Virus record (IMG/VR): IMGVR_UViG_3300022562_000956
Location: 1-49,911 of that record
DNA: 49,911 bases
Source of the DNA: a virus
Reading direction: 5' to 3' (one strand)
In this document: piece by piece, positions 2,600 to 36,062 of the stretch
How positions within the stretch are numbered: the first letter of the stretch is position 1
Layout of the letters: every line of letters begins with the position of its first letter
Notes under the pieces: model-generated
What the model saw: only the letters and a program-made list of their open reading frames with translations
Told to the model about the DNA's origin: nothing
Databases searched by the model: none
Program-made: the position numbers and the translations under genes

Positions 2600-2835
2600 C
2601 TCATGCCTCCGTTCTTCGCCAACCATGGGTGCCTGTTACGTTTCTTGCGCGCTCTCTTGGCCTCCGGAGTTCCATATGGATGTACCAGTAGAATGCCATG
2701 CTCTCGCAATCCTCCGACGAGTGTACAGCGCCCCTCTGCAAGCAACGTCAGTCCAACAAGTACGTGACCGTCAACGTCACAGAAAAAGACATAGTCCTGC
2801 GGATTCGAAAGCGTCAACTCCAGCGGCTCTCTCAC
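2596..2835 (-). CDS. Hypothetical protein (79 aa)
   Basis: Starts at a GTG that shares bases with the stop of the resolvase gene (GTGA). The first two thirds are beta-rich (DYVFFCDVDGHVLVGLTLL), the end is very basic (KRARKKRNRHPW). It may bind nucleic acid; no family recognised. Confidence 0.5.
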   Translation of the reverse strand: MREPLELTLSNPQDYVFFCDVDGHVLVGLTLLAEGRCTLVGGLREHGILLVHPYGTPEAKRARKKRNRHPWLAKNGGMR

Positions 2836-3356
2836 GCACGTACTCGCTTGCCCAGGAAGTTGGCCACGCCGTCGAACGCAGCGTAGTGCGCCATCACGAT
2901 GGCCTCCGCCACGTTGTGGTCGTCGACGCGCCCTCTGCCGACCAGCAAACTGTTCGCGTAGGCCACGGCGCGCTGCTTGATCTGCTCAGTTGTGCCGTAC
3001 GTCCCAATCGTCCTCTGCCGCCACTCGTCTGGCGATATGCCTACGACCCATGACCGCATGTGCCCAGCCATGTCGAGTTGCTCCATCCACCGGCCTCGTG
3101 CGTCACCCATACCCAGGATGGTAGCCGTGTTGCGCTTGCGTGACGCCGGGATGCTCGAGTGGTCCTCGTAGAACACGAGCAGCCGCGCATTACAGACAGT
3201 AGCCACATTGCGCGCCTGGATGACTGCCTGCCGCCGGTCCTCGCAGGTCTTGGCCAGGCCCCACACGACAGGCTGCACGCCGTCACGCACGCACCAGCCA
3301 GACGCAGCGGCCTGGTCTAGCGCGAGCACCACGATTGGCTGCTTCACGCGCCCCAT
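2832..3356 (-). CDS. RuvC-like Holliday junction resolvase
   Basis: A 174-residue RNase H-fold nuclease of the RuvC type, expected to cut four-way junctions formed during phage recombination or to trim branches before packaging. The acidic active-site residues are visible: Asp14 in V-V-L-A-L-D-Q-A-A-A-S-G-W at the first strand, Glu64 in L-V-F-Y-E-D-H-S, and the last helix D-D-H-N-V-A-E-A-I-V-M-A (Asp145/146, Glu151). Length matches the family. ATG at 3356 overlaps the upstream stop. It fits functionally with the exonuclease/annealase pair at 16.4-18.0 kb. Confidence 0.8.
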   Translation of the reverse strand: MGRVKQPIVVLALDQAAASGWCVRDGVQPVVWGLAKTCEDRRQAVIQARNVATVCNARLLVFYEDHSSIPASRKRNTATILGMGDARGRWMEQLDMAGHMRSWVVGISPDEWRQRTIGTYGTTEQIKQRAVAYANSLLVGRGRVDDHNVAEAIVMAHYAAFDGVANFLGKRVRA

Positions 3357-10449: not shown

Positions 10450-10722
10450 TCATGCTGACCTCACTCGGCGCTGCCGAATGACAGCCTCCGCGCGCATCAC
10501 GAGCTCTGACACGCTGAGTCCGAACGCCTTGGCGAAACGCTCTGCCATGCGCAGAGAGCAGATTCCGGCATGACGCCGATACCCTCCGGAGAGCGCGCGG
10601 GCAACGTGCGTTGCGTGCATCCCTGTGCCGGCAGCTAGGTCGATGTTCGACCATTTTCGACGGCGCTGCTCATCGTAGATCACGTCAGCCAGTGCTGATT
10701 CAAGCTCTGTTCGTTCTCGCAT
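10450..10722 (-). CDS. XRE-like HTH regulator 2
   Basis: 90 residues from MRERTELESAL. The HTH is less canonical: W-S-N-I-D-L-A-A-G-T-G-M-H-A-T-H-V-A-R-A-L-S-G-G, then E-R-F-A-K-A-F-G-L-S-V-S-E-L-V-M-R-A. The last part closely matches regulator 1 (AFGMTASELVAKAE), so the two are related. Its start lies 23 bases inside the end of the transglycosylase gene. Confidence 0.75.
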   Translation of the reverse strand: MRERTELESALADVIYDEQRRRKWSNIDLAAGTGMHATHVARALSGGYRRHAGICSLRMAERFAKAFGLSVSELVMRAEAVIRQRRVRSA

Positions 10723-11167
10723 CACGCTCCATCTCCTCTCGCAATCTGTCACGCGTCCGCAGCACCGCAGGCGCACCGACACGCACGTAACATCGACCTG
10801 ACCTGTAGCCGCGAATCGCTCCAATATCAGACCTACACCTGCGCTGGTACCACGCCAGCGCCGCAGCTCCGGAGCGCGCTTGAGCTCGCACGCACTTGTA
10901 GTGCCTGCAGAAACCACGCGCAGCCCACAACGCAGGCAACACCTGCAGGATGCCGACGGCTCCGCGTCGCGACACAGCAGTCGGAGAGAATCGCGACTCG
11001 TGCCACGCTAGGCTCGTCAGCAGCAACGGCTCCGTGCCGTGCTCGTCGGCAGCGAACACCATCACGTGAGCCAGTTCGGATGCACCCGAGTGCGTGCGGA
11101 ACACGTCTGGGCACGTCGACGTGGTCGCGCACATGGCGATGATGGCGGCTGCTAATTTGGCAATCAC
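10700..11167 (-). CDS. Exported lytic transglycosylase (SLT-like)
   Basis: 155 residues from GTG 11167, which forms GTGA with the true stop of the SLOG gene. The N-terminus M-I-A-K-L-A-A-A-I-I-A-M-C-A is a signal peptide. The catalytic region reads L-T-S-L-A-W-H-E-S-R-F-S-P-T-A-V-S-R-R-G-A-V-G-I-L-Q-V, the SLT pattern with catalytic Glu in H-E-S-R-F and G-A-x-G-I-L-Q, followed by A-L-A-W-Y-Q-R-R-C and I-R-G-Y-R-S-G-R-C. It cleaves the MurNAc-GlcNAc bond of peptidoglycan in the periplasm. It lies far from the lysis cassette, so the role in lysis or envelope change is open. Confidence 0.7.
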   Translation of the reverse strand: MIAKLAAAIIAMCATTSTCPDVFRTHSGASELAHVMVFAADEHGTEPLLLTSLAWHESRFSPTAVSRRGAVGILQVLPALWAARGFCRHYKCVRAQARSGAAALAWYQRRCRSDIGAIRGYRSGRCYVRVGAPAVLRTRDRLREEMERDARTNRA

Positions 11168-11584
11168 GAGTGCCTCACAGTTGTGTTGCGCCAGCGTGGT
11201 CCGACGATGTGGACGCGCACGTGCAGTCCAAAGCGAGACGCGGTCTGGGATCGCGTGGAGTGTTCCGCGTGATAGACCATCCCAGATGGCCCACAGCTCC
11301 GTGGCCATCGCCTCTCCATTACCTGTGATCATGTTGGCATTGCGGATCGGTCCAGCTGCTTTCCCGTGAGCTGCCCAGTCTGCGGGCCATATCTCGACAG
11401 GATCATCCATCGTGGAGCGGATGTGCTCGGCAACAACTCGGTCGACCCCGCGCGCATCTCCGACCCGCCACATCTGATCGTGAGATAACCACGCATCGTC
11501 TTCGTTGTGCATGATCTCGAACGCCTCCAGCGCAATCTGTTCAGGAATCGTGCGAGTACCTGACACTACTACGATGCGGCTCAT
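11164..11584 (-). CDS. SLOG-family (DUF2493-like) protein, frameshifted
   Basis: Starts M-S-R-I-V-V-V-S-G-T-R-T-I at 11584. It has the Rossmann-like DUF2493/YspA pattern: V-V-S-G-T-R, V-G-D-A-R-G-V-D-R-V-V-A-E-H, P-A-D-W-A-A-H-G-K-A-A-G-P-I-R-N and W-D-G-L-S-R-G-T-L-H-A-I, as in nucleotide-derivative binding proteins. After H-A-I the frame is broken at a G run (11247-11249). Dropping one G restores Q-T-A-S-R-F-G-L-H-V-R-V-H-I-V, the normal family ending, with a stop at 11166-11164. Repaired length is 139 residues. As written the frame runs on into the transglycosylase, a false fusion. Confidence 0.7.
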
Positions 11585-11712
11585 TTGCTCACGCTCCCGA
11601 TCTTGACTGCTGCCCACAACACCGTTGCGATGACGACCGACGCCGCGATGAACGACGCGATGAAAACGTGCTCAGCGATTACTGTCAGCGCTGCTGATAC
11701 GACTCGGATCAT
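11581..11712 (-). CDS. Small single-pass membrane protein (43 aa)
   Basis: From ATG 11712 with a good GGAGGTGA upstream: M-I-R-V-V-S-A-A-L-T, then a hydrophobic helix (FIASFIAASVVIATVLWAAV) and the tail KIGSVSK. Its stop overlaps the SLOG start (ATGA). Codon use and ribosome site make it convincing despite its size. Role unknown. Confidence 0.6.
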   Translation of the reverse strand: MIRVVSAALTVIAEHVFIASFIAASVVIATVLWAAVKIGSVSK

Positions 11713-12227
11713 GGCTCACCTCCACGCGTCAAAGCTCCTGTCAGACGCAGTTTGCGCAACGCGCGATGCTCGAGCAGACGCACTGTCTCGCGCGAGACGC
11801 CCATGATCGCGGCAATGTCGTCAATGCACATGCCGTTCGGGTTTTCTGCCACCAACCGCTGTGCCTCAAGGTCGAGCTCCCACGGAACCTCGCGCCGGGC
11901 TCGTGCGTACTCCGGCGACACGCGCCACTCCTGCGATGTTCGCTGCTGGCTCCGCGTGACAGAATGGAACGGGTCTTTCCCGGCATGGATGCGAGAGACC
12001 ATTCTCAGCACAGTCGTTCCTTTGCGCTCGGCCCACTCGGCATACGTCAGCGTCTCACCCTCGTACGTCAGCGGCTGCTCCGCAACCGGCCTGAGCGGGT
12101 CCGGGTAGTTGCGAGAGTAGCGCATAGCGATCGTGCTGGCTGGGATGCCCAGCTCGCGCGCCCATTCGCCGATTGTGCGCGTCACGCCGTCGCGTGTGAT
12201 CTGAATGTAATGCGATGCTCTTGACAC
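11709..12227 (-). CDS. Regulator with two WA-LG-HTH modules and a sigma-region-4-like HTH
   Basis: 172 residues from GTG 12227 (GGAG six bases upstream; ATG 12239 also in frame). Two similar modules appear: R-T-I-G-E-W-A-R-E-L-G-I-P-A-S-T-I-A-M-R and L-T-Y-A-E-W-A-E-R-K-G-T-T-V-L-R-M-V-S-R, as in small DNA-binding repeats found next to HNH domains. The C-terminus, I-D-D-I-A-A-I-M-G-V-S-R-E-T-V-R-L-L-E-H-R-A-L-R-K-L-R, is a sigma-70 region-4-type HTH. No HNH or core-binding region 2 is visible, so it is more likely a transcription regulator than a full sigma factor. Confidence 0.6.
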   Translation of the reverse strand: MSRASHYIQITRDGVTRTIGEWARELGIPASTIAMRYSRNYPDPLRPVAEQPLTYEGETLTYAEWAERKGTTVLRMVSRIHAGKDPFHSVTRSQQRTSQEWRVSPEYARARREVPWELDLEAQRLVAENPNGMCIDDIAAIMGVSRETVRLLEHRALRKLRLTGALTRGGEP

Positions 12228-12269
12228 ATGGTTCTCCATATATGCGTCTGCAAACAATAGGGCGTGCGC

Positions 12270-14970: not shown

Positions 14971-15262
14971 CCACTGCACTGAATGCCTGTGCCTACCTCC
15001 GGAAGGCGTACCAGCGCATAAGTGGCTAGGATACGATGCCGTGTGCCCAGACTGCCGGCAGATGCTGGATGACGAGGAAACGTTTGAGGAGCACGCGGCC
15101 GAAAACGTGTCCATCACCGAGTTCGGCATCGCAATCGGTCACTGCAGCTGCGTATACTGCCGTCGTCACCTGGCGCGACAGGCGCGACAGTGGGCGTGGG
15201 AGAAGTTGCACAAGGCGCGCGCTGCCGAGCCGGTTGACGAGAGCGAGGACATCACGTTTTGA
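14963..15262 (+). CDS. Cys-rich zinc-binding-like protein (99 aa)
   Basis: GTG start at 14963 overlapping the previous stop, with AGGGAGAG upstream. Three Cys clusters: H-C-T-E-C-L-C-L-P-P near the start, C-P-D-C-R-Q-M-L in the middle and G-H-C-S-C-V-Y-C-R-R-H later, consistent with two zinc sites. The C-terminus is Trp/Ala-rich (RQWAWEKLHKARAAE). Role unknown. Confidence 0.5.
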   Translation: MADHCTECLCLPPEGVPAHKWLGYDAVCPDCRQMLDDEETFEEHAAENVSITEFGIAIGHCSCVYCRRHLARQARQWAWEKLHKARAAEPVDESEDITF

Positions 15263-15282
15263 GCAAGCGGAGTGATGTGAAG

Positions 15283-16116
15283 ATGAGCAAGAAGAAGAAG
15301 ACAGTGCTGACGAAGCGCGCGCGTGACTTTTTGTCGCAAGGGCGGACTATTTATGACGGGTCGATCGCGTATGTGTTGCGTACGTGCGACGCGAACATGA
15401 CTGCTGCGCACCGCGGATTCGTATGGCCACGGTCGGGCGCAGTGACGTGCGATGATTGGGCTGCGACGCGCGAGTGCGGAAATGGATTGCACGGGTTCCT
15501 GTGGGGGACTGGTGATCACGCCTTGGCCTCATATGCACCAGGCGCGATCTGGGTCGTGTGCGCTGTGTGGTCGGACGATGTCGTCGACTTGGGCGGAAAG
15601 GTCAAGTTTCCGCGGGCGTGGGTCGTATTTGCGGGCCAGCGCGATGATGCGGTTGCATTACTCGTGTATCTTGGTGGGAAACCGGATTTTCGTGGCACCG
15701 CGACGGCTGGCGACGCTGGCACCGCGACGGCTGGCTACGCTGGCACCGCGACGGCTGGCGACGATGGCACCGCGACGGCTGGCGACGATGGCACCGCGAC
15801 GGCTGGCTACGCTGGCACCGCGACGGCTGGCTACGCTGGCACCGCGACGGCTGGCGACGATGGCACCGCGACGGCTGGCTACGCTGGCACCGCGACGGCT
15901 GGCGCACGTGGCACCGCGACGGCTGGCTACGCTGGCACCGCGACGGCTGGCTACGCTGGCACCGCGACGGCTGGCGCACGTGGCGTCATCTCTATCTGGG
16001 GATGGGACGGTAAGCGTCGCCGGATGGTCACTGGTTACGTCGGGGAAGACGGCATCAAGGCCAACGTTGCGTACCGCGTTGATCCGAAAACCGGGTGCCT
16101 GGTAGAGGCTAGATGA
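15283..16116 (+). CDS. DUF7666-like protein with twelve 8-residue G-T-A-T-A-G repeats
   Basis: 277 residues from ATG 15283 (TTG 15259 in frame overlaps the previous stop). N-terminal domain: Y-D-G-S-I-A-Y-V-L-R-T-C-D-A-N-M-T-A, W-P-R-S-G-A-V-T-C-D-D-W and C-G-N-G-L-H-G-F-L-W-G, as in DUF7666 proteins. Then twelve tandem copies of G-T-A-T-A-G-x-x, where x-x is DA, YA, DD or AR, likely a narrow beta-solenoid, and a beta C-terminus (GVISIWGWDGKRRRM). Such proteins occur in phages and plasmids with no known role. Confidence 0.65.
   Translation: MSKKKKTVLTKRARDFLSQGRTIYDGSIAYVLRTCDANMTAAHRGFVWPRSGAVTCDDWAATRECGNGLHGFLWGTGDHALASYAPGAIWVVCAVWSDDVVDLGGKVKFPRAWVVFAGQRDDAVALLVYLGGKPDFRGTATAGDAGTATAGYAGTATAGDDGTATAGDDGTATAGYAGTATAGYAGTATAGDDGTATAGYAGTATAGARGTATAGYAGTATAGYAGTATAGARGVISIWGWDGKRRRMVTGYVGEDGIKANVAYRVDPKTGCLVEAR
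15694..15981 (+). repeat. Twelve tandem 24-bp coding repeats
   Basis: Each unit is GGCACCGCGACGGCTGGC followed by six variable bases (GACGCT, TACGCT, GACGAT or GCACGT). The eighteen-base core is identical in all copies at nucleotide level, so the array is recently expanded or kept uniform by recombination. It lies inside the DUF7666-like gene and keeps the frame (period 24). Confidence 0.95.
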
Positions 16117-24873: not shown

Positions 24874-27800
24874 TCACTGCCCCCTGGAAATGCTCTGGTC
24901 AGATCCAGCTTGTAGGTTGGCTGTTGCGGCGCCTAGACCGGTCGCCGACGTGTACGAAAGCTTAGCAGGCTGCTCTTGTGACGACTGAGCCTCTTGCGCC
25001 TGCGCGATGCTGCCGCTGGCTAGCTCGTTGATCAGCGTCTGGAAAGATGGCGTATCGAACGATGTCATCGGCGCACCAAGCACGCGAGACATCCGCAGGC
25101 GTTGCTTGTACGGAGGCTTCTCGCGCATCTTGGCGATCTCATTCGTCACCTGTGAGACGAACCTACCCCACAGCCGTGGCTGCAGCGTGCGGATCGCGTC
25201 AAGGTCCTCCTGCACCCACTCGCCACTGGCGATGCGCTGCATGGCCGCAGCGGGATTTTGCACGGCGCGCACCGAGCGCAAGAACGACTGCACGTCTGAT
25301 TTGGCGTACTGCTGCTTGGCCGCAGCCGCGAACGGTGTGCTCAGGTCGATGAGCCCGCTCGGCGCCTTCCGCATCAGGTAGTCGCTCGCGCTCTGGACAT
25401 AGCGCTCCATGGCCGCTGCATGCTCCGGAGACTCCGCGGCCAGCTGGCTGTACTGCTCGCGCAGTTGCTTGCGCTCGTCGCTCATCGGGTCGGTCATGCG
25501 CGACAGCGCCTGGATCCCGCGCTCCACGCTGGCAGGCTTGTTCGCAAACATCATCGTGCCAGCAATCGGAGCGCTGCGCCCAGCCGCTGTGGCAGCGGAT
25601 TCGACTCCGCGTCCGACGCGCTCAGCGGATCGAGCTGCCGCGCTTGCAGCTCGCTTGGATACGTCAACGGTCTTTCGCGCTGCATTGGCAAATGAGCGCG
25701 CCGCCTGAAGAACGAGGCTGTCACCAGACAGCGCTGTGGTCTTTGCGGCTGCCAATGCAGAGGCGTTCCCCGCCGCCGATGCGGCGGATGTCAGTTCCCC
25801 GCTGGCAAGCGCTGACAAGTCGATGTTGCGACGAGACGCTGCCTCGGAAACATTGGCCAGCTTCTGCGTCACGGACAGCGCGCCTTTGCCAACCCATCCG
25901 ACAGGTCCGGGGATGTCCGCCTCCTGCACGAGCCTGGCGAACTCGTCGCGATCGCGTCGCATCAGGGCGACCGCGTTCATGTTCTCTTCGATCTTCTCGC
26001 GCAGCCCGGACAACTTGCTTGCGAGTTCCTGAGCTTCCTGGCTCCCCCAAGCCTGTGCTCGGTTTACCGCATCAATCTCGCGCGCACGCAGGTAGCGACG
26101 AAACGCCTCCTCCTGTGGAACGACCTCTTCGTCTCCCAGGCGTCGCAGCAAGCTTCCGACATTGTTTCGATTCAGCTTCTTGAGTTGTCGGAACGGGTTC
26201 GCTGACGACTCGCCGCCCTCGTACAAAACACCACGAAGCATGTCGTCTTTGCTGCGCCTGATGGCTTCTGCATACGTAGCGTTGACGCGTTTTTGCATCG
26301 TTCCAAACGACCCAAAGACCGACTCGTCCTCCAGGTGCTTGCGAAGCTCGTCGGCCATCCCTGGCAGCTGCCCGTCTCCCTGGAGTGCCTGACGCACGAT
26401 CGGGTTGCGCGACACGGCAGCCTTGTTGTCGATTGCGCGTTTGAGGTCGTCAAGAACCATAGCGGCATCGCCCAACTCGCCGTTTGCGATGTGTTCGCGA
26501 AACTTTGCCCTTGAATGGGCTAGTTGAGCCGACAATTGCTTGACCGTAGCCCCACCACTTGCATCGTTTAGGCTTGGTCCTAGACGCTTCAGCCGAGTCA
26601 GTTGCTCACCAAGATTAGAGAACACAGACTCAGTCTCCATGCCGGCTTTGACTAAGTTCTCGTTCAGAGCCGACCTAGGCGTCGGCACGTATGCCCATAC
26701 CGAGTCAAGGCCAGCCTCTCTCGCCGCTGCCACTCGATGCAAGCCATCGTCAACGATGTATTTTCCGGATTCTCCGATATCAGCGCGGATAGCTGGCAAC
26801 GGTTTCCGTCCTTCAAGGGCTTCCTTTACGGGCTTGAGCTTGGACTCTGACCATGAAGACGGTGCATCTATTTCGTCCAACGGAACGCGCTCAAGACGCC
26901 ATGCATAGTCAGGGTCGTCAGCGTGTCTGGCCAAAAACTTCTTCGCATCCGCTTTGTCCGCAACGAACGCTGGGCCCTTCTTCCCACCAATGACCGGGTT
27001 GAACGATTCAAGACTCGCCTCGCCCAATGATTCAATCTTGCGAGGACCATGAACTTGTAGGTTCAGCTCCCGCGCCTTTGCGCGTTTGGCTGCGATAGCT
27101 ACCTGGTCGTCCATCCTCTGCGTGATCTTGACGAACTCGTCTCCAGCCTCGCCGATGTCGCGCACAGCCTGCTGCTGCATGTCCTCAAAACCGCCGGATG
27201 CAGCGCGCGCTTGCGCAAACAATGCGGCAGCCTTCTTGCGTTCAGCCTGCGCAAGGTCACGCGATACCAAGGCTCCCTTGCTCTCGTATAGTGGCTCGAA
27301 CGCAAACTCAGCCTCTGCTGCGGCATCTCCGGTTGCGCTGGACGATAGCTTGGACAACTCGTCGACCGTAGACGACACGCGTGATTCAAAGGATCCGGCA
27401 GCCTGCGCAGCTGCAGACGCAGCCGCATCAACACCAACCTCCGATGCAACCTCGGTAGCCACCGGCTTGCCCATTCCGAGTGCTTCACCGATAGCACCGG
27501 CAGCGCGAGATCCTGCCGCGTATGCGCCTCTACCTGCCTCGGAAAGCTTCTCGCCAGCGAAACGGACCTTATCAGCCACTGCGCGACCAGCCGCCTTCGC
27601 TCCGGTGCCAATCAGCGATGAAGCTCCTCCGAACGCTCCGCCAAGCAACGCGCCCTCTTGCGCGCCCATCGCAATGCGCTCGGCTGTGATTTCCTGATCA
27701 TTCAGAAAGTCATTGTCGACCGCCTGAGCAGCCCCATACAGCGCGCCCTCGAACGCGCCCTTGCCAACTGCCACGCCAGCTCGGCCAAGCGCTGACGTGA

Positions 27801-28338
27801 CGCCGCCAGCCCCCAGGCGTGCCGCAGCGGCCTCGGTGCCAAGCCCACCAGTGAGCAGGCCAAGACCGATGGCTCCACCGACCTCACCTACCGTCGATGC
27901 GATCGGATTGGCTTCCTTGCGTGCCAGCAAGTCGGCGCGCGCCTCTTTCTCAGCTGCCAGCGCCTGGTCAGCGCGATTCATGTCGACGACCGGCGCGTTC
28001 AGCCCGCGATCGACAGCGCGCTGCGTCTCGCCGATGCCCGCATAGTCGGCTAGCTGGTTGCCGAGCTCGGTGCCGATGCCTGCGCCGTACGCCTGGATGG
28101 CGTCGCTTGCGCCTAGCGTCAGGCCACGGCCGACGCTCTCAAGCAGCGCGCGCGGTCCTGATTCGCCAGCCTCAATCAGGCGGTTTGCGCGCGCAACGTC
28201 ATCGCCAGACGCGAGAGACCCGCCACGCTCCGACAGATATCGGTCGAGTTGGCTTTCCGGTACGGTGCTCAGCGAGCCGTCGTCAGCCTTGACGATCACC
28301 CGTCCAGAAGGATCTCTCTGCAAGTCATCCGGCATCAT
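24874..28338 (-). CDS. Internal/ejection protein with embedded ParB-like domain
   Basis: 1154 residues, Ala-rich. Glycine-rich hydrophobic stretches at ~150-260 (GGAIGLGLLTGGLG, GAQEGALLGGAFGG) suit membrane insertion by a podoviral ejection protein. Around 480-552 is a ParB/sulfiredoxin-like domain: L-E-R-V-P-L-D-E-I-D-A-P, L-P-A-I-R-A-D, G-K-Y-I-V-D-D-G-L-H-R-V-A-A-A-R-E-A-G. The rest is long helices (KRLGPSLND, EKIEENMNAVALMRRD) and a C-terminal tail. It should enter the cell with DNA; the embedded domain may act on host DNA or nucleotides (inference). Confidence 0.65.
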   Translation of the reverse strand: MMPDDLQRDPSGRVIVKADDGSLSTVPESQLDRYLSERGGSLASGDDVARANRLIEAGESGPRALLESVGRGLTLGASDAIQAYGAGIGTELGNQLADYAGIGETQRAVDRGLNAPVVDMNRADQALAAEKEARADLLARKEANPIASTVGEVGGAIGLGLLTGGLGTEAAAARLGAGGVTSALGRAGVAVGKGAFEGALYGAAQAVDNDFLNDQEITAERIAMGAQEGALLGGAFGGASSLIGTGAKAAGRAVADKVRFAGEKLSEAGRGAYAAGSRAAGAIGEALGMGKPVATEVASEVGVDAAASAAAQAAGSFESRVSSTVDELSKLSSSATGDAAAEAEFAFEPLYESKGALVSRDLAQAERKKAAALFAQARAASGGFEDMQQQAVRDIGEAGDEFVKITQRMDDQVAIAAKRAKARELNLQVHGPRKIESLGEASLESFNPVIGGKKGPAFVADKADAKKFLARHADDPDYAWRLERVPLDEIDAPSSWSESKLKPVKEALEGRKPLPAIRADIGESGKYIVDDGLHRVAAAREAGLDSVWAYVPTPRSALNENLVKAGMETESVFSNLGEQLTRLKRLGPSLNDASGGATVKQLSAQLAHSRAKFREHIANGELGDAAMVLDDLKRAIDNKAAVSRNPIVRQALQGDGQLPGMADELRKHLEDESVFGSFGTMQKRVNATYAEAIRRSKDDMLRGVLYEGGESSANPFRQLKKLNRNNVGSLLRRLGDEEVVPQEEAFRRYLRAREIDAVNRAQAWGSQEAQELASKLSGLREKIEENMNAVALMRRDRDEFARLVQEADIPGPVGWVGKGALSVTQKLANVSEAASRRNIDLSALASGELTSAASAAGNASALAAAKTTALSGDSLVLQAARSFANAARKTVDVSKRAASAAARSAERVGRGVESAATAAGRSAPIAGTMMFANKPASVERGIQALSRMTDPMSDERKQLREQYSQLAAESPEHAAAMERYVQSASDYLMRKAPSGLIDLSTPFAAAAKQQYAKSDVQSFLRSVRAVQNPAAAMQRIASGEWVQEDLDAIRTLQPRLWGRFVSQVTNEIAKMREKPPYKQRLRMSRVLGAPMTSFDTPSFQTLINELASGSIAQAQEAQSSQEQPAKLSYTSATGLGAATANLQAGSDQSISRGQ

Positions 28339-30098
28339 TTGCCCGTGTATGGACGCTCATCGAGCGTGTCCAGTTGGTGATTGTACGGCTTCAGAGAAGC
28401 GTTGACCGACTTGACCACGTCCTTCTCAAGCGAATCGTAGTAGTCGTACGTGTCTTTGATGTTTGCCTCTGACGGGTTTGTGAACGCTTGTTCCAGCTGC
28501 TTGATCTGACCTTCGTTTGGTGCGCTCTTGTCTCCGAGCACAAGGTTCCACTGCGAACGTAGGCGCATGATGAGTTCTTGCGACTTCGCTCGTTCAGTTG
28601 GGCTTAGCGTAAACCCGCGCTTGGACGCTTCTTTCAGCGCCTGCACAGTCGTCATGAAGTTGCCGGCCGTAGAAACGATCTTCTTGGCCTCCTTGACGTC
28701 GTCCTCGGTCACTTGCCCGGTACGCTTCAATCCTCCTGCCTCTGGCAGTGCGCCTTCACCTCCGCCAGCAGCCTTCTGACGAGCAATCTCAGCTTCGGCC
28801 ATCTCACGACGGCGCTTGCTTAGCTCGGCCATCTCGCTGTTTGAGATCGTTCCGTCGGCTTCCTTGGCCATCAGCTCCGCGATCTGCGGGTCACGCCGAG
28901 CAGCGGCCGCACGACGTGCCTGCTCCTGCTGGTACAACGACACGTTCGCCTGGTCGGCGCGTGTCTGATTCTTGTCGAGCCGCTCAGTCTCAAAGTTCTG
29001 CCGATTGCGCGCGCGCTCCTGGTCGATGGCGGCCACAGCCGCAGCCGCATTCGCCGTCGTCTCCTTGGACATCGACGCGTCGCGGATTGCCTCCAACTCT
29101 TGCTGATGAGCGCGCAGCCGCGCGTCGCGCTCGAGCAGGTCGGCTTCGCGGTCATCGCGAGCCATGTCGCGGATGCCCTGGATCTGCTGCTGCTTGGCAG
29201 TGAGCAGGCCACGCTGATTGGCCAGAGCCAGCTTCTGCTCTTCCATGTCGCGATCAATGCCGTCGTTGATGACCTGCATCGTAGTAGCCAGGCCGTTCGA
29301 CTGGTTTCCGCCGGAGCGAGCGATCGCATCGCCGATGCCGGACATCGCGAGCGCGAGTGCTGCTCCTACGCGCTGGGCCGTCGTCCGCCGGTCACCGATT
29401 TGCGTGCCTTCGATCTTCTTCTGGATCTCGGCTACCTCGCGGTTTGTCGCGTCCATGGCTGCCCGATGCTGCTCGCGACGAGCTCGCGCCTCATCCTCAG
29501 CAGCGCGTTCGGCAGTGGCGGCAGCTTGCTTCTTCTGCGCGATCTGGTCGAGCGCGTCCGCCTGCGCTTGCGCTGCCTCCATCGTGGCATCAGCGCGCAT
29601 ACCAGCGGCGACCTCTTCATCGGTCTGCGCCGTCTGCAGCGCCGATTCGGCGTCCTTGGCTGCAGCACCGCTACGCGCAGCGATATCGCGCATCGGGTTC
29701 GCCGGACCAGTGCTGCTGCGCTGGCGCTGGGCCATCAGGCGATTGGCTGCGAGTTGCGCAAGCTGCCTCGTGTCCATCCCGCTCAGGTCGTCTGGCTCGG
29801 CCGCAGGCGCCTGAGCACCAGGCGGAACAGGCGGAGCCATGGTCTCCTGCTCCGCAGTCTGCTGCTCGACCTGGAACGGGTCAGCCGGCGGCGAAAACGC
29901 GGGCTCCTGAGGAGGCTCAACCGACTGCACAGGCTCGGCAGGCGCGTAGTCGTAGGGTTGCGCCATCGCAGGCTCAGGCGCACCGGGCACGTCGTACGGA
30001 GATGCTGACGACGACGCCATCGCAGCCGGCGCTGATGACTGCATGTCAGCGCCGAACTGGTACGCGAGCTGTGCCTCTTCCTCGGGCGTCAGTGCCAT
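28335..30098 (-). CDS. Coiled-coil internal virion protein
   Basis: 587 residues. Residues 1-110 are Pro/Ala/Gln-rich and probably unfolded; ~115-420 is a near-continuous charged coiled coil (AERAAEDEARARREQHRAAMD and later stretches), with G-A-A-L-A-L-A-M-S-G-I-G-D-A-I as a hydrophobic break. The last ~150 residues are helical with D-V-K-E-A-K-K-I and a Y-D-Y-Y-D-S-L-E-K stretch. Position between two other large proteins in the tail block fits a second ejection protein. Confidence 0.6.
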   Translation of the reverse strand: MALTPEEEAQLAYQFGADMQSSAPAAMASSSASPYDVPGAPEPAMAQPYDYAPAEPVQSVEPPQEPAFSPPADPFQVEQQTAEQETMAPPVPPGAQAPAAEPDDLSGMDTRQLAQLAANRLMAQRQRSSTGPANPMRDIAARSGAAAKDAESALQTAQTDEEVAAGMRADATMEAAQAQADALDQIAQKKQAAATAERAAEDEARARREQHRAAMDATNREVAEIQKKIEGTQIGDRRTTAQRVGAALALAMSGIGDAIARSGGNQSNGLATTMQVINDGIDRDMEEQKLALANQRGLLTAKQQQIQGIRDMARDDREADLLERDARLRAHQQELEAIRDASMSKETTANAAAAVAAIDQERARNRQNFETERLDKNQTRADQANVSLYQQEQARRAAAARRDPQIAELMAKEADGTISNSEMAELSKRRREMAEAEIARQKAAGGGEGALPEAGGLKRTGQVTEDDVKEAKKIVSTAGNFMTTVQALKEASKRGFTLSPTERAKSQELIMRLRSQWNLVLGDKSAPNEGQIKQLEQAFTNPSEANIKDTYDYYDSLEKDVVKSVNASLKPYNHQLDTLDERPYTGK

Positions 30099-30105
30099 GG
30101 CTACC

Positions 30106-32679: not shown

Positions 32680-35600
32680 TCAGCTCGGTGATGTGATCTC
32701 AAGGTCTGGCTGCGCCGCATTCACGCGGTGCACGTTGTTGATGATTTGTCGTCCGCGCTTGGTGACACCGTATTCCTGCAGCACTGCGAGCGGGATGACC
32801 CCCGAGTGAGACAGGCTTCCAGCGACCTCGCAGTGCAGCTTGTACGCGGTCACGCGCTGGCGAGCGGGCTTGAGCGGCAGCCACACGACGCCATCCGTGA
32901 TCCAGTCGGCAAGGTTAGCGCCGGAGTACTCCCACTGCGTTGCCACCGTATTGATGTCGTAGTCCAGGTACAGCGTGATGGTGATCGTCAGGTTGCTCGA
33001 CAGATCCTCGCTAGGCGTCTGCAGCGATAGCAGCAGCGACCACAGCCTGCCGTAACCGTTCAGGCTGGTCAGCTTGATCCACGGCGTTTCCCAGATGCTA
33101 TCGCCTGAGCGCTGGTTGTACCCGCTGTCTCCGCGTCGTAGCTCGGTCAGGATGCTGGTGCCGGTCGACCTGTAGATCAGGTCGTTGATGATGACCGTGT
33201 CTACCTCGCTCGTGGTGAGCGTGAGCTGCGACCATGCGTTGTTCGCGATGGAGTAGTAGTAGATCGCGTCGGCGCCCTGCACACGGATCTCGTGGTTCGC
33301 TGGATCGTACACAGCGCGTAGGCACGTGAACGTGCGCGCGTTCGTGTCCGGCTCGATCGGAAGTCCGACCTCTTGAATCTGCCCGTTCCAGATCACGAAG
33401 CCACGAGCGCTCTGGAAAAACAGTCCGACGGGCGTGTCCGCGATGCTCGCGCGAGACGAGCAGCCAATCTCGATGACCTTGCGCGGAGGAGCGAACGAAC
33501 CGAAGCCGAGCGCGTTTGGACCCTCACCATAGAGTTGATAGATGCCGTCGTCGCAAAGAAACGTTGGAACGCCTTGTACGTCGATGACAGCGACGGCTTC
33601 TGCGCCGAGGTCTCCGGTCAGCGCGCTGTTCCACTCGGGCGCGTATCCAGACACGAACGGCTTCGTGCACCACCATCGCGAGCGGTCCTCTGCGTCGACT
33701 CCGAACATGCGGTCGCCGACTGTCGCGATAGAGCAGAAGCTCGGCGGAGGCTCCGACGAGAGCTCGCCGCTGTCCGTGTATAGCGGCGGGTCGCCGGTGG
33801 AACCGGCTGCGATGCTCGTGAACGCGTAGTGCATGCCGCCGGTCGTCGTCGAGTCGTAGTCGTCCTTCTTGTTGGAGTTGTTTGCCAGGTAGTAAAGCGA
33901 TCCTGGTCCAGACTCCGTGCAGTAAACCTCAACGCTGTATCCGCCAGCTGCGATTGCAGAGTTGCGCCCAGTAAACGCGGGGATCTCAACATAGAACGTG
34001 TCGGTCGCATCGACCAGGATAGCGTCGCTAGGAGCGCTTCGGTGCAGCTTGCCAGCGCGGTCTACCCACGTGTACAGCGCGACTACGCTGATGGTCGTCC
34101 CTGGCGTGCCGATGTAGCAGGCTGGGCGTCGCAGCGGCTGAGCTTCGGTTGTATGCATGCCGTCGTGGTCGAACAGCGAACCGCCTGCGATCAGCGTGGT
34201 AGAATCGTGCTGCTGCCATGGAAGTGGTGATGGCGAGAAGTTGAGCTTGTTCCAGAACACGCTTTGCGGGTACGTTGTCGTATCGCTTGGCACTCCGTCT
34301 GCGGCTGGGTCTCCAACTGCAGCGATATGCGCTACTCCATCGATCACCGACACCGCAGATGTCGCGATGATTCCGATCGGTTGCTTGAACGCACGGTCGT
34401 GCATGATGCGAGCGGCAGGGTCGAGCCGGCTCTCGGTGTTACCGAGCCGAGCGATGATTATTGCAGCCGCCGATGTATCCCAGGCTGACGAAACGAACGC
34501 GGTTCCCCTGCCAGTCGTCAGCGGACAGAAGCATTTGCCGCCGACCGTGAACGCGCCAGCGATGATGCTCGTGTTCGGCGTAGTGAATTTGCTGAAGTCG
34601 TCGAACATGCTCGACGCGAAGTCGATAGCCGAGCAGTCGACGAAATCCTGCGCGCTGACGTTCGTGTCCGTGCCCATCACGAAGATGCACGCGATGTCGT
34701 CGTCGTCCTTCTGGCATGCAGTGATCTTGCTGTAGGCCTTGCCCGTGCCAGGCGTCATCGTGGTATACGTCGTGCCTGGAGTTCCCAGCACTTCTCCGAT
34801 GACGTTGCTCGAATAGATACTCACCACAAGTGACTGCGTAGCGCCCACGACCAGGTCAAAGTCGGTCGCGGTATGGCTTGCCGTATGGGTCGATGCGACC
34901 ACCTGAATCGACGTGTACGTGCGCACGTTCAGGATGGCCGAACCGCTGTTGTCGTAGTATCCGAACAGGTACGCCGTACCACTTGGCGAGTGGTAACGGA
35001 TGCGGTGCTGGTCAGACCCGGCAGTCGACGTCAGCGTGACAGCGGTCTGGAATGAGCGTGAGCTGTCGACCCACTCGACAAGCTTGATCGAGAACGGAGC
35101 CGCAGTCGCGTCAGAATACGTTACTACCGCGCCCGTGGTCAGGTATTGGCACGCTCCAATGACAGGAGCTCCACCGCTGTCTCCCTGGGCTGTCACCTGC
35201 CGTTCTGCGATGACTGTGCCGTCCGCCGTGACCGCGCGCATGCGCACTTTCCACGCACCACTCGTGTACACCGACCAAGCGAACACCAGGTTGCCGTTGG
35301 CAGTGCCAGCGCAAACCGCGGTGTGAACGTACTCTTCCTGTACGCCAAACTGGGCCGTCGCTAGCAACTGACGCGACACCTCGATCGGCGTCGTAGAGAA
35401 CGCGCCTGACGTCGCGCTGCTGCCAGCGGTAGCAGGAGATGTGCACAGAGCCGTAGTGCCATCCACGAGGCGCCCTACGCCATGCTGAGCGCTCACAAAA
35501 ATGACGTCGTTATCGCGCGCTGCCAGCGTATGCACAGTGCCTGTTGCGACTGCCGTACTCGATGTCGCAGGCGTGCGCTCGAGCTTGCCAAGCTGGCCGA

Positions 35601-35715
35601 AGCGATAGCCATCTAGCACGCGGAAGCCGGACGGGCCCTCGGCCTGCTCGTGCTCCTTGAGATCGAGCCCGCCGGTCAGCAGCAGCTCTTGCTCACCGCG
35701 TGGAAGGCCAGCCAT
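32680..35715 (-). CDS. Large tail (nozzle-like) protein
   Basis: 1011 residues, start M-A-G-L-P-R-G-E-Q at ATG 35715, overlapping the previous stop (TGATG). Beta-rich throughout, Ser/Thr-rich, few charged helices; N-terminus L-L-L-T-G-G-L-D-L-K-E-H and late S-L-L-L-S-L-Q-T-P and Y-K-L-H-C-E-V-A-G-S. Size, composition and position right after the adaptor match the large beta-propeller nozzle/stabilisation proteins of podoviruses (T7 gp12 / SU10 / epsilon15-type). Assignment by context. Confidence 0.55.
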   Translation of the reverse strand: MAGLPRGEQELLLTGGLDLKEHEQAEGPSGFRVLDGYRFGQLGKLERTPATSSTAVATGTVHTLAARDNDVIFVSAQHGVGRLVDGTTALCTSPATAGSSATSGAFSTTPIEVSRQLLATAQFGVQEEYVHTAVCAGTANGNLVFAWSVYTSGAWKVRMRAVTADGTVIAERQVTAQGDSGGAPVIGACQYLTTGAVVTYSDATAAPFSIKLVEWVDSSRSFQTAVTLTSTAGSDQHRIRYHSPSGTAYLFGYYDNSGSAILNVRTYTSIQVVASTHTASHTATDFDLVVGATQSLVVSIYSSNVIGEVLGTPGTTYTTMTPGTGKAYSKITACQKDDDDIACIFVMGTDTNVSAQDFVDCSAIDFASSMFDDFSKFTTPNTSIIAGAFTVGGKCFCPLTTGRGTAFVSSAWDTSAAAIIIARLGNTESRLDPAARIMHDRAFKQPIGIIATSAVSVIDGVAHIAAVGDPAADGVPSDTTTYPQSVFWNKLNFSPSPLPWQQHDSTTLIAGGSLFDHDGMHTTEAQPLRRPACYIGTPGTTISVVALYTWVDRAGKLHRSAPSDAILVDATDTFYVEIPAFTGRNSAIAAGGYSVEVYCTESGPGSLYYLANNSNKKDDYDSTTTGGMHYAFTSIAAGSTGDPPLYTDSGELSSEPPPSFCSIATVGDRMFGVDAEDRSRWWCTKPFVSGYAPEWNSALTGDLGAEAVAVIDVQGVPTFLCDDGIYQLYGEGPNALGFGSFAPPRKVIEIGCSSRASIADTPVGLFFQSARGFVIWNGQIQEVGLPIEPDTNARTFTCLRAVYDPANHEIRVQGADAIYYYSIANNAWSQLTLTTSEVDTVIINDLIYRSTGTSILTELRRGDSGYNQRSGDSIWETPWIKLTSLNGYGRLWSLLLSLQTPSEDLSSNLTITITLYLDYDINTVATQWEYSGANLADWITDGVVWLPLKPARQRVTAYKLHCEVAGSLSHSGVIPLAVLQEYGVTKRGRQIINNVHRVNAAQPDLEITSPS

Positions 35716-36062
35716 CAGAACACCCACAGGCGAATCGTCGCCTGCGTTGATAGACCGCCTGCGTTCGTCCGCTGCATAACGAACGTCGTGGACGGGTCGT
35801 AGCCGTTGTCTCGAGCAACGATTGGGCTCGTCACGACAGCGCCGTCAAGCGCATCTCCGATGATGCCAGGGCGCATCACCATGATGCCGAAGCCTCCTAC
35901 GTAGTCGCGTCCGAGCAGGTGCTGCGCAGTCGCAACGCTCGCACCAGACGCGAACGTGATGTCGAGCCAGCGACCGCCAAGGAACGGCACGTTGATCAGC
36001 TCGTGCTCGCGATGCGCATCAGGCGTAGGGCGAAACGGCAGTGCTGGTCTACGCTCAGCCAT
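35715..36062 (-). CDS. Small beta-sandwich virion protein (LWVF ending)
   Basis: 115 residues. H-L-L-G-R-D-Y-V-G-G-F-G-I-M-V-M and the final A-T-I-R-L-W-V-F match a family of small phage head/tail proteins that carry H-x-L-G-R-x-x-x-G-(F/W)-x-V and end V-x-L-W-V-F. I do not know its exact place; genome position between adaptor and nozzle suggests a tail or connector component. Confidence 0.5.
   Translation of the reverse strand: MAERRPALPFRPTPDAHREHELINVPFLGGRWLDITFASGASVATAQHLLGRDYVGGFGIMVMRPGIIGDALDGAVVTSPIVARDNGYDPSTTFVMQRTNAGGLSTQATIRLWVF

Follow-up and report, generated by a model that had tools for sequence, protein, structure and literature searches.

An apparent SLOG-transglycosylase fusion in a phage contig is very probably two overlapping genes joined by one extra base

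Results

One minus-strand frame in a 49,911-base virus record (62% GC; the whole of this stretch is called the window below) combines a SLOG domain with an SLT lytic transglycosylase. Very probably, however, it consists of two separate, translationally coupled phage genes, which look like one frame because of a surplus base at 11249-11247. This is the best explanation in the light of profile scores, codon usage, structure prediction and about 250 related loci, which bear out a sequence-only reading of the same DNA, which had taken the fusion as spurious and the two genes as coupled. PHROGs matches in the window include a terminase large subunit, a portal, a dUTPase, a RecT-like protein and a DNA methyltransferase. 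The features of the locus are collected in Table 1.

Table 1. Features of the SLOG-SLT locus (window coordinates)
Feature	Position	Strand	Remarks
43-aa ORF, one hydrophobic helix	11712-11581	-	ATGA overlap with SLOG start
SLOG/YAcAr-type gene, two-gene reading	11584-11164	-	ATG 11584 to TGA 11166-11164; 139 aa with one base of 11249-11247 skipped
CCC run (GGG on the plus strand) with extra base	11249-11247	-	frame break between SLOG core and last helix and strand
GTGA overlap, SLOG stop/SLT start	11167-11164	-	GAGG Shine-Dalgarno-like motif 5 nt before GTG
SLT lytic transglycosylase gene	11167-10700	-	GTG start, 155 aa, short hydrophobic N-terminus, WHES catalytic motif
Apparent 294-aa fusion ORF	11584-10700	-	ATG to TGA as written; architecture judged spurious
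90-aa transcriptional-repressor-like gene, next downstream	10722-10450	-	23-nt overlap with SLT end

Frame break in the SLOG domain

The sequence as given does encode a SLOG-SLT fusion: the frame runs through 294 amino acids without a stop, just as the sequence-only reading had described. Residues 3-112 match PHROG 289, residues 178-264 match Pfam SLT, and the linker of the fused frame reads PDRVSLWTARARPHRR... With one base fewer at the CCC run the frame reads ...GTLHAIQTASRFGLHVRVHIVGPRWRNTTVRHS and ends at the stop at 11166-11164. The corrected tail past the run, GTLHAIQTASRFGLHVRVH, corresponds to the helix and strand with which SLOG relatives end, e.g. GTKHMIDLARKKGLGVNIV in L008.

The two forms were scored against a SLOG profile made from 12 other phage SLOG proteins, the window copy being left out. 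The fused form reached 69.2 bits and the corrected one 83.8 bits, a gain of 14.6 bits. When every deletion or insertion of one base within the first 420 nt of the ORF was tried (approx. 840 changes), the three equivalent deletions at 11247-11249 obtained the top score, so that the removal of one G proposed earlier, with its normal SLOG ending and GTGA overlap, is the best single-base change. A single-base insertion in place of the deletion gave 72.6 bits at best, which is clearly worse. None of 2000 dinucleotide-shuffled tails attained 83.8 bits (maximum 79.4). The PHROG 289 score rose from 51.5 to 63.4 bits (E 3.7e-17) after the correction, and the end of the match moved from residue 112 to residue 133. 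In tblastn searches against phages the corrected protein matched 156 records at E<=0.01, many of the alignments continuing beyond the break, while the fused protein matched 2 records at the different threshold of E<=1e-5.

Codon usage was compared for the three frames of the 81-nt linker, and the fused frame came out at -6.6 and the third one at -10.2, against -1.3 for the SLOG frame. A deficit as large as that of the fused frame occurred in 0.25% of held-out early-gene windows, the codon model having been trained on late genes only. Codon score had also served to choose the held-out early genes, hence this result has a supporting role only. The codon bias of the early region is weak.

AlphaFold2 modelled the corrected SLOG with a mean pLDDT of 90.7, and helix 106-117 and strand 121-126 complete the fold; the variant modelled had the base skipped a few nucleotides further on, so that Q113 was read as P. 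In the fused form strand 121-126 was lost and the confidence dropped after residue 120. The alignment used for the fused form held SLOG rows only and no SLT relatives, hence its poor C-terminal half means little. A mixed SLOG and SLT alignment was rejected for folding, since it placed the SLTs onto the SLOG wrongly.

The SLOG protein

The corrected protein belongs with the YAcAr/YspA, cpYpsA-related SLOG family (PF10686; PHROG 289), of which Klebsiella phage KP8 AVJ48925.1 and Vibrio phage H188 AKU42626.1 are examples. It is 29-39% identical to the aligned relatives and shares with them the invariant motifs G..R, G.(A)RG.D, ADW..HGK.AG.IRN and WDG.S.GT, but differs from them in an insert around NMITGNGEAM. 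The window copy itself gave no Pfam match, PF10686 included, although 11 of the 12 alignment members do match PF10686. The first 12 phage relatives are all stand-alone genes of 114-136 aa, whereas the window copy as written lacks the last strand and continues into the SLT.

The Rossmannoid alpha/beta fold with its G.R, GxARGxD and GT motifs was found in the window SLOG, both in the invariant columns and in the AlphaFold2 model. Foldseek returned weak matches for this model (TM-score about 0.5-0.6), among them DprA, ShosA and a MoCo carrier protein, which are SLOG folds. Only chance-level matches were obtained when the PDB was searched by sequence with the SLOG protein. Most viral SLOGs are predicted to act in NAD-related pathways, where they would counter ADP-ribose-type signals of host immunity (PMC9503650). 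The same analysis predicts for phage SLOGs that they bind or cleave nucleotides or ADP-ribose derivatives, and the window protein would probably bind or process signals of this type.

The SLT gene and its N-terminus

Taken separately, the 155-aa SLT gene scored 39.3 bits against PF01464, above the curated cut-off of 21.3. Its AWHESRF motif contains the catalytic Glu (ES), which is invariant in the SLT alignment. The T7-like internal virion protein gp16 has local SLT similarity to it around this Glu, but gp16 is a virion protein of more than 1300 aa.

The SLT gene had been credited with a signal peptide of its own. Its N-terminus is short and hydrophobic, contains a single lysine (MIAKLAAAIIAMCATTS) and is conserved in position in the stand-alone relatives; it may be a signal peptide or, as a possible alternative, a SAR-like anchor. 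An invariant C13 ends this short hydrophobic stretch in the aligned SLTs (window 11167-11117, minus strand), and the preceding M/L/V misfits a normal lipobox. The Cys in this place recalls that of SAR endolysins such as P1 Lyz.

Separate genes in the relatives

As the earlier reading had suggested, relatives were searched for separate genes. In IMG/VR and GTDB genomes 160 further SLOG loci were examined, and none of them had SLOG fused to SLT; the frame extensions beyond SLOG did not look SLT-like by eye, and most of them stopped within 20 residues. No SLOG was found within 1.5 kb of the SLT in any of 87 SLT relatives. Thus no homologue among the 247 loci carries both domains in one frame, and the SLOG-SLT neighbourhood itself was not met in any of the relatives either. 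Of the viral records with SLOG, 40 were checked, and 4 of these had an SLT above the cut-off. The nearest case is L052, with a SLOG gene at 1395-1730 and a different, stand-alone SLT-like gene at 2695-3066, on the same strand and about 1 kb downstream. This SLT-like gene of L052 has a hydrophobic N-terminus.

The nearest SLTs, of PF01464 type on IMG/VR contigs (L178-L181, L183, L195, L199), are stand-alone and their N-termini are similar to that of the window SLT. Those of L178, L179, L180 and L183 are 28-33% identical to it over the full length and their starts align with GTG 11167. AWHESRF, GA[VI]G.LQ, the hydrophobic N-terminus and the Cys at the same place are shared between the window and the stand-alone SLTs of L178-L183, L195 and L199. 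These contigs have no SLOG gene near the SLT, while in the window the SLOG gene lies between a membrane ORF and the SLT.

No close relatives of the fused protein, the portal, the terminase and the junction DNA were found in IMG/VR, nor any of the portal and the SLOG-SLT locus in the phage collection; consequently, the junction could not be compared directly in a near relative. No second contig or copy of the region turned up in the collections searched, so the short form was not observed directly.

Discussion

A genuine, functional SLOG-SLT fusion protein with a new domain architecture would account for the frame which is open as written, from its ATG to the end of the SLT. Such a protein is nevertheless very improbable. 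Its SLOG fold would be broken before the last strand, it would bury in mid-chain a hydrophobic N-terminus that the stand-alone SLTs conserve, its linker has poor codon usage and it has no counterpart among the related loci. In addition, there is no clear logic in linking a cytoplasmic nucleotide-binding domain to a periplasmic enzyme. A related proposal, to which we give little more credit, is that a recent real insertion fused the nucleotide-sensing SLOG to the exported SLT in one phage lineage, the fusion being made alongside a separately started SLT.

A programmed +1 shift of the ribosome at the CCC run would yield both a short SLOG and the fusion from one message, and phages can shift at proline CCC. 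The +1 sites of Listeria phages are CCC_UGA and ACA_CCC (PMC5009743), and the known phage sites have an in-frame CCC, then a stop codon or a pseudoknot (PMC5009743), as in Listeria phage PSA. In the window, on the contrary, the zero-frame codons are AUC CCA GAC, in which CCC does not stand as a codon, and the site is not followed by a stop codon. By base-pairing rules the re-pairing of the P-site tRNA would be poor (AUC to UCC, CCA to CAG), and the 12 phage SLOG relatives examined all do without a shift. We regard this mechanism as the least probable of the explanations.

According to the two-gene reading, the ribosome would end the SLOG at its TGA and re-initiate at the overlapping GTG, aided by the GAGG upstream. 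The ATGA and then GTGA overlaps, which join three genes by stop and start, together with the GAGG before GTG 11167, make translational coupling likely. The SLOG protein would remain in the cytoplasm and probably bind or process nucleotide or ADP-ribose-type signals. The SLT would be exported to the cell wall by means of its hydrophobic N-terminus and cut peptidoglycan there, plausibly for lysis and probably beside the small membrane protein.

As the source of the extra base, an error of sequencing or assembly and a genuine frameshift mutation are about equally likely. The second case, that is a two-gene locus whose SLOG gene was damaged in the sequenced phage, has just under an even chance. 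The longest late-gene frames are unbroken (e.g. 24889-28297, 32695-35749 and 28338-30105; approx. 20 kb in all), so the contig is not generally prone to indels. A run of three G is not a typical site of sequencing errors. Since the run has only three bases and the late-gene frames are intact, an error is not clearly favoured. The SLOG gene is accessory and its loss is conceivable, but the remaining SLOG frame is intact and conserved, which would place such a loss in the recent past.

The fused architecture is not a real feature and should not be counted; each of the two genes adds a member to a known kind. An annotation by longest frame would enter a spurious SLOG-SLT architecture in the databases, where searches for nucleotide-signalling effectors could be led astray by it. 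The locus matters mainly as a caution for automatic annotation, the genes themselves being ordinary phage genes.

The 43-aa membrane ORF had not been mentioned in the sequence-only reading. In L180, L181, L183, L195 and L199 the SLT start coincides with or lies next to the end of a one-helix membrane ORF, and the two often overlap as ATGA; most of these ORFs have 43-45 aa, and the frame listed for L181 has 139 aa, its end being near-identical to the ORF of L180. In the window the corresponding overlap is with the SLOG start and not with the SLT start. The simplest history would be that a SLOG gene was inserted into a pair of membrane ORF and SLT. The occurrence of this pair, a small membrane ORF with a short SLT, in several contigs points to a possible compact lysis cassette.

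Two further observations were made in the window. A 182-aa protein encoded at 11709-12257 (minus strand) matches PHROG 3377 (HNH-endonuclease-associated) with its N-terminal part and PHROG 351 (sigma-factor-like) with its C-terminal part. A 24-bp tandem array at 15693-15984 (plus strand; 12.2 copies, 93% matches) lies within the ORF 15259-16116 and encodes 8-residue repeats of ATAG type.
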